38,073 nt of DNA, taken from assembly GCF_002243045.1 (NCBI RefSeq), contig NZ_MBKP01000046.1, positions 1-38,073 of the forward strand, read 5' to 3'. Source of the DNA: Methanolobus psychrotolerans. GTDB lineage: Archaea; Halobacteriota; Methanosarcinia; Methanosarcinales; Methanosarcinaceae. Numbering within the stretch: position 1 is the first letter of the stretch; every line of letters starts with the position of its first letter. The translations under genes and the position numbers were made by a program. This document shows positions 32,858 to 36,083 of this stretch, one piece after another. The notes beneath the pieces were generated by a model. That model searched no databases. It was not told the origin of the DNA and worked only from the letters and a program-made list of their open reading frames with translations.

Positions 32858-33091
32858 TCACTTCAGTTCTGCACCCACAATTGTTTGTGTAGCAGTGACT
32901 GATCCTGTCTCACGTATAAGGTCTACAATGCTGTTGAGACTTCCCAGATCATCGACCTCGATTATCACAACAAAATCATACTCCCCAAATACATGATAAA
33001 TATCCTTTATCCCTTCGATCTTGTTGAGTTCATTAAAAGCTATTCTTTCGCTGCCAGGCAACACGTTGACCATAGTTACTCCGATTACCAT
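32858..33091 (-). CDS. Stand-alone Lrp/AsnC effector-binding (RAM) domain protein
   Basis: A 77-residue protein made only of the ligand-binding and oligomerisation domain of Lrp/AsnC regulators. It opens MVIGVTMVNVLPGSERIAFN, continues with the alpha-beta pattern GIKDIYHVFGEYDFVVIIEV and ends in an amphipathic helix and strand (TATQTIVGAEL). There is no DNA-binding helix-turn-helix. Such proteins form oligomeric rings and bind amino acids, and may modulate full-length Lrp proteins. A TTG at 33154 would add 21 unrelated residues. The ATG at 33091 is preferred because it opens the conserved domain and has GTGAT close by. Confidence 0.85.
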   Translation of the reverse strand: MVIGVTMVNVLPGSERIAFNELNKIEGIKDIYHVFGEYDFVVIIEVDDLGSLNSIVDLIRETGSVTATQTIVGAELK

Positions 33092-33265
33092 TGTATCACT
33101 AACACTGAAGTGGGTTGCAAGGTATTTAGCAGTTTTCGATGCATTAACAGACAATCAAAAGTCATATTAAGTAAAATCGATATCTAAGTAGTCCTTTGCA
33201 AAATCACATCATAATGATGAGTATAATAAGCAAAATCTTTATATACAATCGTAAGCATACTATCA
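33092..33265 (+). promoter_or_regulatory. Region upstream of the RAM gene and TATA box of the candidate small RNA
   Basis: A perfect 13-bp palindrome, CATCAT-A-ATGATG (33207-33219), lies in this gap and is placed to control either direction. TTTATATA (33238-33245), preceded by the purine-rich AAAA of a possible BRE, points rightward with initiation expected near 33266. No protein gene is seen. Confidence 0.5.
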
Positions 33266-33338
33266 CTAGATGAGCGGGTTATCCTCTTTTTGACAATAAC
33301 CCCCACTCCCCAACCCGCTCATACTCCACTCCACTTTT
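33266..33338 (+). ncRNA. Candidate small RNA with two alternative hairpins
   Basis: A compact transcription unit with no open frame: TATA box at 33238-33245, expected start near 33266 and a T5 tract at 33334-33338. ATGAGCGGGTT (33270-33280) pairs perfectly over 11 bp with AACCCGCTCAT (33312-33322). The same G-run can instead use GGGTTAT (33276-33282) to pair over 7 bp with ATAACCC (33296-33302). The two helices exclude each other. The unpaired parts are C-rich, with CTCC three times (once in ACTCCCC, twice in ACTCCACTCC), complementary to GGAG ribosome sites. No known RNA family is recognised. Transcription is inferred, not seen. Confidence 0.55.
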
Positions 33339-33423
33339 TACATTAACATCTACTGATTCTGATCTATAGATATCTAAAGCTTCAGAGATGAAACTCCATC
33401 CTATGATATCTTAAAGTAATTAG

Positions 33424-33495
33424 CCCAAGTTATCACCTTAACATACGTTATCACCTTAACATACGTTATCACCTTAACCCAAGTTATTACCTCGA
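33424..33495. repeat. 18-bp tandem repeat, four units
   Basis: Four adjoining 18-bp units start at 33424, 33442, 33460 and 33478. The core is GTTATCACCTTAA; units two and three are identical (CATACGTTATCACCTTAA), and units one and four begin CCCAAGTTAT. They lie in the non-coding gap between the candidate small RNA and the end of rfcL. The remainder of the gap to 33658 is AT-rich without visible genes. Confidence 0.9.
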
Positions 33496-33658: not shown

Positions 33659-35137
33659 TCAAAAATCAAACAAAGTCTTCTGTGGCTTTTTTATAGGCTC
33701 TTTTTTAGAGAAAGAGGACCTTTCTGAAATAATAGAGTCCTGATTTGAAACCCGTAATTTATCCAGGCTCAACTGAGAAGGATCCTTCTTAGAAGTGACC
33801 CTTTCTACAAAAAAGACAGGTTCGTCCGAAGGAAAGACATTCTGGCGCATTTCCTGGGCTTCATCATAAATAGATTGAAGCTTTTTTGTGACCTTCTTAG
33901 CACCCACCATATGAAGCATTTCATCCATATCAAGCCCAAGTGTTGCAACAACATCTGCGGCATAAGTATCCGTTTCCAAAAGTCTTGAGTAAAGCCCTGC
34001 AACCTCAAGCCGGGAATAACGCATTGATTCATTGCAATGAGTACCAACCTTCACAGCAATATTGTTCCTCATATCCTTTTTAGCACGCATCTGTCCCATC
34101 TTGCGCCAGAGGGAAGGAGGCTGGTATTTTACAAAACCACCTCGCATGCGGGAATTTGAAACAACAGTCCCACCCGTCATAAGCATGCCTGCATAACGCC
34201 ACATACGATAATTCTGACGCCTGCGCACACGCCCCAGAAAACGATCAGCCCGTGAAAGATAAGAATATGCCTGAATAATGTCATTAGTCAGCGGTTCTTC
34301 GCCCTTTCCAGTGTATTGGTATGGAAGATTTTCATCCACCCAGTGGATCAGATCCTCTGGCGTTTCATCGAGATTATAAGTAGCTTCAAGAGCAGATGAA
34401 ACATCTTTCCCCTTAAATATCCTCCCCACTACTTTGAAAATGGACTCTTTAGTATCCCTTTCAGATGTGGAAATATCCTCTACATAGATTTCTGTACGAC
34501 CCATGGCAACTGCCTGCAGATCATTGACAGCACTTCTAAAATCACCATCTGCAACTTCAGCTATTTTTTCAAGGACACCGATACCACATACCAGCCCCTC
34601 CTGCTGTGCAATCTTTTTGAGTGCCGGGATCATAGAACGCGACTGTACGGAAGCAAACTTAAGCTCTAAACACAATGAACGCAGTGAAGAAGATATACCA
34701 TAAAGATCGTTAGCAATAAGCACAAGAGGTTGATTTGTTTTTTTGACAATATCGATAATTGCACGTGACCCTCCCCGATCACTATTACCATGCAGATTAT
34801 CAGCTTCATCGAGTATGATCAGCCTTTTTGCAGAAGCACCAGTCAGAGTTTGCATCCGGGAGGCAGAACCTGCCACTTTTTCGATTGCACTTGCGGTTCT
34901 CTGATCACTTGCATTAAGTTCTATAACTTCCCAGTCCATATCACTTGCAAGTGCATGTGCAGAAGATGTCTTACCTATACCTGCCGGACCATGGAGCAGT
35001 AAGGCTTTTACTTCAGGCGTACCATGGACCCACTGCTCACCCCATTTTTTTAGAGCATCTATCACCGTTTTATGTCCGACAACATCATCAAGTATCCTTG
35101 GCCGGTATTTCTCTGCCCATTCCATCTGCACAGTCAT
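33659..35137 (-). CDS. rfcL: Replication factor C large subunit
   Basis: A 492-residue AAA+ clamp-loader subunit that helps load PCNA onto primed DNA. WAEKYRPRILDDVVGH opens the family, Walker A is HGPAGIGKTSSA, Walker B is LIILDEADN, and sensor 1 follows in LVLIANDLYG. The C-terminus ends QKTLFDF, a PIP box that binds PCNA. The frame is open to 35539, but that part is antisense to mtxX. ATG 35137 (MTVQMEWAEKYRP) is the natural start, with GGGT upstream; an ATG four codons later is also possible. It is divergent from mtxX, with 88 bases between. Confidence 0.96.
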   Translation of the reverse strand: MTVQMEWAEKYRPRILDDVVGHKTVIDALKKWGEQWVHGTPEVKALLLHGPAGIGKTSSAHALASDMDWEVIELNASDQRTASAIEKVAGSASRMQTLTGASAKRLIILDEADNLHGNSDRGGSRAIIDIVKKTNQPLVLIANDLYGISSSLRSLCLELKFASVQSRSMIPALKKIAQQEGLVCGIGVLEKIAEVADGDFRSAVNDLQAVAMGRTEIYVEDISTSERDTKESIFKVVGRIFKGKDVSSALEATYNLDETPEDLIHWVDENLPYQYTGKGEEPLTNDIIQAYSYLSRADRFLGRVRRRQNYRMWRYAGMLMTGGTVVSNSRMRGGFVKYQPPSLWRKMGQMRAKKDMRNNIAVKVGTHCNESMRYSRLEVAGLYSRLLETDTYAADVVATLGLDMDEMLHMVGAKKVTKKLQSIYDEAQEMRQNVFPSDEPVFFVERVTSKKDPSQLSLDKLRVSNQDSIISERSSFSKKEPIKKPQKTLFDF

Positions 35138-35225
35138 GTTATTTACCCAATATTCAGGAAAAGTAATTAATGTTTGCGTCACTTTGTTTGTTCTGATTGA
35201 TATTATTAATGGTAGGTATCTTTCC

Positions 35226-36083
35226 ATGGAATCAAAAAGTACAGAAAACCTCCTTGGCCTGATAGAGAAAAGGGCATTGAAAAACAGGGCGAGAGTTGCC
35301 ATAGGAGTACGCAACCCCAACTCCAAAATGCTTAAGAGTGCCAGAGATGCACATGAAGCAGGATATGCACATGTGCTTCTTGTAGGTAACAAAAAAGAGA
35401 TAGAAGAAATAGGAACTGAACTTGAGATAATAGGAACCAATGACCCGGAAAGAACACTTGGAGACCTGTTAAAATCCAGATACGTTGATGCTGCAGTAAG
35501 AGGAACTGCCGGAGCCTCAGGAACGTTATCACACCTCAAAAAGATACTAAATCAGGAAAGCCTTCACCGGATAGCCTTATTGCAGACAAATGAAGGAGCT
35601 CCTTTTTTTATTGCACCTGTAGGCATAGATGAAGGGAACGAACTTGCCGATAAAATCGAATTCATAAAACTTGGGGTTGAATATATTCGCAGGTTCAACA
35701 TCGAACCGGTCGTCGGCATTCTTTCCGGAGGAAGACTGGGAGATCTTGGTCGTAACCCACGTGTAGACCAGACACTTGCAGAAGGAGACTTCATTGTTAA
35801 TAGAATCAGAGAGCAGGGGATCGATGCAAAGCATTACACGATACTGATAGAAGATGCAATAAAGGAAGCAAATTTCATACTCGCACCAGACGGTATATCA
35901 GGCAACCTGATATTCAGGACACTCGTATTCCTTGGTGGGGGAGACGGACTTGGCGCACCCATATTAATGGACGATTATGTATTTGTCGACACATCAAGAG
36001 TGGGAGGACATTATACCAAAGCCATAATGCTTGCAAGTGCACTTGTAGAAAAACATGATACACAAGCAATTAATAATGAATAA
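35226..36083 (+). CDS. mtxX: MtxX, methanogen marker protein 4 (phosphotransacetylase-like)
   Basis: A 285-residue protein of the phosphate acetyl/butyryl transferase fold, annotated in methanogens as a possible methyltransferase subunit (MtxX); its real reaction is unknown. Visible features: RVAIGVRNPNSKMLKSAR, the HVLLVGNKKEI strand, and in the C-terminal half VVGILSGGRLGDLGRNPRVD and FLGGGDGLGAPILMDD. The family is confined to methanogens. The frame is open to 35136, but the ATG at 35226, after an AGGT-type site, opens the conserved part. It stands alone, divergent from rfcL. Confidence 0.88.
   Translation: MESKSTENLLGLIEKRALKNRARVAIGVRNPNSKMLKSARDAHEAGYAHVLLVGNKKEIEEIGTELEIIGTNDPERTLGDLLKSRYVDAAVRGTAGASGTLSHLKKILNQESLHRIALLQTNEGAPFFIAPVGIDEGNELADKIEFIKLGVEYIRRFNIEPVVGILSGGRLGDLGRNPRVDQTLAEGDFIVNRIREQGIDAKHYTILIEDAIKEANFILAPDGISGNLIFRTLVFLGGGDGLGAPILMDDYVFVDTSRVGGHYTKAIMLASALVEKHDTQAINNE

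Follow-up and report, generated by a model that had tools for sequence, protein, structure and literature searches.

A predicted class-wide family of small RNAs with exchangeable stems and a nearly invariant C-rich loop in Methanolobus and related archaea

Introduction

To our knowledge, archaeal small RNAs with a distribution wider than a single genus are few. In Methanosarcina mazei, the trans-acting sRNA41 and sRNA154 mask ribosome sites (PMC5867862, PMC3510493), with the ACDS operon being the reported target of sRNA41 (PMC5867862), and sRNA162, an RNA of 191 nt with three stem-loops, is restricted to Methanosarcina (PMC5867862, PMC3510493). For Methanolobus psychrophilus, 195 intergenic small-RNA start sites are reported; nine of these sRNAs are called "highly conserved", are induced by cold and have a "cold box" in common upstream (PMC5378194). 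In Rhizobiales, the "cuckoo" RNAs SmelA075 and SmelA099 consist of three or four short hairpins with CCUCCUCCC loops that present an exact anti-Shine-Dalgarno sequence (PMC3927594).

Here we analyse a locus of Methanolobus psychrotolerans on contig NZ_MBKP01000046.1 (GCF_002243045.1), whose 38,073 nt, numbered on the forward strand, constitute the window. The locus lies between a RAM-domain gene and rfcL, with the family member at 33267-33325, and from its conservation pattern it is very probably the gene of a trans-acting non-coding RNA that belongs to a class-wide family. It shares its class with sRNA41, sRNA154 and sRNA162 of M. mazei. With the Rhizobiales RNAs it has in common a multi-copy occurrence, an invariant C-rich loop motif, highly variable stems and order-wide spread (PMC3927594), whereas the archaeal family has one long stem, a nearly G-free loop of 27-64 nt and a U tract, and its loop motif is CCCCCACUCCCC instead of CCUCC. 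The nine sRNAs of M. psychrophilus come from the same genus and are likewise conserved and intergenic (PMC5378194), and the present family has several motif loci per Methanolobus genome. Compared by this description only, the nine may be members of the family. Expression would then already be known, and novelty would still attach to the class-wide family, to its structure and to its loop, as far as could be found: no literature record combined the exact loop sequence with Methanosarcina, in a search that reached only a minority of subscription papers and not those describing sRNA41 and sRNA154.

Results and discussion

Locus, promoter and predicted transcript

The upstream neighbour (32858..33154, minus strand) encodes a stand-alone RAM (Lrp/AsnC ligand-binding) domain protein, assigned from a match to Pfam PF01037 (1.4e-9) and from synteny; its conserved start probably lies at 33091, giving 77 aa. 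Downstream and convergent lies the gene for RfcL, the clamp-loader large subunit (33659..35539, minus strand), identified by AAA/Rad17 matches and synteny, with a true start that falls within the listed ORF and not at its listed beginning. All 27 Methanolobus genomes have an orthologue of the small RNA locus at an identical site, flanked by the RAM gene and rfcL, although one or two of the contigs end before rfcL or carry only part of that gene. Within the genus a 64-nt core is 95-100% identical in most orthologues and the flanks have diverged. The gene order also persists in one other genus, whose RfcL shows just 58% identity.

An earlier sequence-only reading had proposed an independent C-rich small RNA gene at this site, and its component features (a palindrome, a TATA box, stems of 11 and 7 bp, three CTCC motifs and a T5 end) were all recovered in the sequence. 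The TATA box TTTATATA (33238..33245, plus strand) holds a position shared across the family: in 33 of 48 members, one fixed 13-nt zone ahead of the stem contains a TATA-like box with 7 or 8 of 8 matches (1.9 expected from shuffled flanks), and many members have a BRE-like purine-rich stretch before this box. The locus therefore appears to carry its own promoter, as an independent small RNA gene would, and this part of the proposal was borne out by the retention of both promoter and long stem across relatives. Between the divergent RAM gene and the small RNA, the 13-bp palindrome CATCATAATGATG (33207..33219, strandless) looks like an operator. Directly upstream of the small RNA promoter, it recurs as inverted repeats of the ATCATNATGAT type in 27 of 27 genus orthologues, with a drifting register.

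Because of the TATA spacing, we place the start of the RNA at the stem or within about 5 nt of it, which predicts a transcript of roughly 70-74 nt (33266..33339, plus strand) with an uncertain 3' end. The tail ACTCCACTCCAC (33323..33334, plus strand) follows the stem, and its first part, ACTCCACT, is kept only in genus orthologues. CTCC motifs begin at 33306, 33324 and 33329. The T5 run at 33335-33339 is common to part of the genus only, and across 48 family members T runs 3' of the stem are hardly commoner than in shuffles; the T5 end is thus a local feature. Copies share no common start and their lengths fall in all three modulo-3 classes, so the family has no conserved reading frame, in agreement with what had been read from this copy. 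A short leaderless ORF, ATGAGCGGGTTATCCTCTTTTTGA, was considered and dropped since its start and frame are lost outside the genus copy.

A covarying stem and the proposed switch

The 5' arm ATGAGCGGGTT (33270..33280) and the 3' arm AACCCGCTCAT (33312..33322), both on the plus strand, pair perfectly over 11 bp in this copy and enclose a 31-nt loop. The predicted fold has an energy of -16.5 kcal/mol (z = -5.0 to -5.4), and none of 200 shuffles did as well. Across the family the stem measures 9-12 bp. In an alignment of 23 sequences, four of its pairs have changed on both sides, with covariation above that of all shuffles and all slid pairings. A 52-row alignment, two rows of which were spurious reverse-strand matches, gave compensatory double changes in 6 of 10 pairs and a covariation score of 0.207 (0.124 when shuffled, at most 0.076 for slid pairings); its counts lean towards the model, to which the rows were fitted. 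Evidence independent of the covariance model comes from paralogues, in which the entire stem is swapped with perfect pairing retained (GCUGACGGGUU/AACCCGUCAGC, UUGCACGGGUGG/CCACCCGUGCAA, UGCGGGGGA/UCCCCCGCA) and whose folds have z scores of -3.9 to -4.7. Taken together, these observations argue for a conserved secondary structure maintained by covariation.

The sequence-only reading had further suggested that the RNA switches between this stem and a competing 7-bp stem, formed by GGGTTAT (33276-33282) and ATAACCC (33296-33302). In this copy both stems do use the same GGGUU, and prefix folding indicates that the short stem may form transiently in the nascent RNA, as long as the 3' arm has yet to be made. 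At -6.6 vs -16.4 kcal/mol, however, the long stem is favoured by 9.8 kcal/mol, and the covariation check that supported the long stem failed for the short one, which scored 0.014 both as observed and when shuffled. The short stem is confined to the copy of this genus; its fifth pair is unformed in 15 of 20 relatives and its seventh in 18 of 23, with no sign of selection on it. Only one of the two alternative stems thus appears conserved, unlike in a two-state, riboswitch-like element, and we consider such a switch very improbable.

A nearly G-free loop with a U tract and an invariant motif

The unpaired loop (33281..33311, plus strand) measures 27-53 nt among aligned members and 64 nt in the longest paralogue. 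Its G content is 1.4% over 50 aligned members compared with 16-17% in the flanks. A U5 tract (33287..33291, plus strand) represents a run found family-wide, as U4-U7 in 48 of 48 members. Toward the 3' side lies CCCCCACUCCCC (33300..33311, plus strand), identical in 26 of 26 sequences of one alignment; a copy from a Methanohalophilus-like genome departs from it by a single base. The pattern AACCCC[N]ACTCCC turned up in all genomes of the genus, its reversal almost never. In some lineages the motif is doubled within one loop: Methanosarcina has two full copies, the second copy of Methanolobus combines CCCCACUCCCAC with CCCCCACUCCCC, and ANME-2 is similar.

Because stems are exchanged while the loop keeps its low G content, its U run and its near-invariant motif, we infer that the stem serves solely as a clamp with no sequence-specific role and that the loop is what selection protects. 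The locus would accordingly encode one of several paralogous small non-coding RNAs per genome, in which the stem holds open a loop that forms the active part.

Distribution of the family

Similar sequence was recovered from every one of 60 relatives by a simple DNA search, and the family is present in each of the 27 Methanolobus genomes. M. psychrotolerans itself has two clear copies plus a third locus with the motif. A covariance model built from 23 sequences of the family had matches in 175 of the order's 186 genomes, and in 117 of the 118 that are of good quality, at 1-19 copies each. Applied to 393 genomes of the phylum, it gave 94 matches, all within the class and including a Methanothrix-type family of a second order; about 300 other Halobacteriota genomes outside the class yielded no copy. 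A pattern scan of named genomes located the family in Methanosarcina, Methanothrix, Methanoperedens, ANME-2, Methanomethylovorans, Methanohalophilus and Methanococcoides. Pattern matches in viral contigs numbered 26, none with a matching 3' arm. Rfam 15 at gathering scores returned no match for the window and 13 member loci, and for the window loose cut-offs gave only chance-level matches to animal families. Judged by these searches, the loci form a real multi-copy sRNA family that spans the class (Methanosarcina, Methanothrix, Methanoperedens, ANME-2) and is uncatalogued in Rfam.

Two genera of the order stand apart. In one (g9) the model found no family copy, with the motif still present in one genome. 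In the other (g10) all six genomes were without the motif and without a model match; these genomes are reduced (1.3-1.8 Mb), and the several copies held by sister genera indicate a clean loss.

Several copies per genome, together with an opposite strand rich in G runs, might suggest that a DNA element is conserved here instead of an RNA, either a G-quadruplex or an inverted repeat borne by a transposon. Neither would account for the fixed upstream TATA box, the strand-specific U tract, the G-U pairs and the compensatory stem changes, and the copy next to rfcL has kept its position throughout the genus. We regard this explanation as extremely improbable.

Possible modes of action

The genes adjoining individual copies encode a Na+/H+ antiporter subunit, an MFS transporter, an H+-pyrophosphatase, CbiC, an RNA cyclase, AIR carboxylase and a FilR1-like regulator, among others. 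With such different genes beside the individual copies, action in trans is the most likely mode; the idea of a cis-acting leader was dropped for the same reason.

The sequence-only reading had envisaged that C-rich stretches block ribosome sites. In its general form, an anti-Shine-Dalgarno RNA that masks such sites broadly, this is suggested by the CUCC within the loop and by a 4-5.5 fold enrichment of loop-complementary 7-mers near start codons; other GGAG-containing 7-mers are, however, equally or more enriched there. Pairing was assessed in 2.0 Mb of a Methanohalophilus-like genome that was read almost in full (G033) and in 0.8 Mb of a Methanolobus genome, and the negative results have the limited power of one and a half genomes, short seeds and home-made gene starts. 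In duplex energies with 5' leaders of the Methanohalophilus-like genome, 17 of 60 permuted loops had a lower mean energy than the real loop, so the target prediction that had been recommended did not single out the real loop from many permuted ones, and permuted loops with CCUCC bound leaders better. Among 441 pairs of orthologous leaders, complementary 7-nt matches common to both numbered 2 vs 1.1 expected, which provides no excess and no conserved regulon. Leaders of the one ACDS operon considered, from a Methanolobus genome, paired mostly weakly with the loop (-4 to -15.5 kcal/mol). Blocking of ribosome sites by the C-rich stretches is thus conceivable but drew no support from the leader, orthologue and ACDS comparisons, and general masking appears improbable to us. 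In the 2.0-Mb genome, the loop also had no complement of at least 11 nt outside the family's own genes and, in ribosomal RNA, no convincing complementarity.

One candidate target was rejected. The sequence TGTGGGGGTG upstream of a QueD-like gene recurs in seven genera (G033:C1:1566416 on the minus strand, G004:C1:138411 and others) and, read in frame, corresponds to C-terminal codons of the overlapping upstream gene.

The explanation we place first is that the loop pairs in trans with a limited set of mRNAs, a mechanism to which we give roughly even chances. An RNA-binding protein, such as one of the Sm-like type, would attach to the U tract. The C-rich motif would pair with G-rich stretches of these mRNAs and so alter their translation or stability. 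With their different promoters, the paralogues would each make this loop available under conditions of their own. That the loop is not an exact anti-Shine-Dalgarno sequence weighs against pairing, and a stretch of 12 nt that hardly ever changes may speak more for a protein as partner than for numerous mRNAs.

Bacterial CsrB/RsmY/Z decoys carry a repeated short loop motif, GGA, in several redundant copies and have CsrA as their partner. The present family resembles them in its repeated loop motif and several copies and differs in being archaeal and in the C-rich nature of the motif. By analogy, the loop motif could be the site of an RNA-binding protein that the paralogues sequester. Such titration would fit a 12-nt motif that is invariant over two orders and among paralogues, its repetition within one loop in some lineages, the free exchange of stems and the lack of signal in mRNA pairing tests. 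It lacks a candidate protein, however; the common form has one full motif only, and loop length and U tract are not accounted for by the motif alone. Given the limited power of the negative results, we rank pairing with a restricted group of mRNAs a little above protein titration, which we regard as a serious rival. A broader version, which we find rather unlikely, is an ancient class-wide decoy or adaptor RNA with interchangeable stems and an invariant loop for a dedicated RNA-binding protein, lost in at least one reduced-genome lineage. If true, it would imply a global regulatory circuit common to methanogens and ANME-2 methane oxidisers.

A large share of global methane is produced or consumed by this class, and multiple copies with an unchanging loop in nearly every one of its genomes point to a core regulator without an Rfam entry. 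For Methanosarcina, which is genetically tractable, the family provides a small and concrete set of loci, about four copies in Methanosarcina mazei or acetivorans, and a loop that is a defined bait for a partner.

Copy arrangement and nearby repeats

The maximum of 19 copies was reached by a genome of family f5. At L045 and L100 and in several Methanoperedens-like genomes, copies stand in tandem at a spacing of 160-250 bases, and a separate TATA box precedes each of them. Downstream of the small RNA in the window, 33426-33492 holds short tandem repeats with a unit of about 18 bases that varies around cgttatcaccttaacata, and a long AAT microsatellite of about 15 units lies roughly 120 bases downstream of the second copy of M. 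psychrotolerans (L002).
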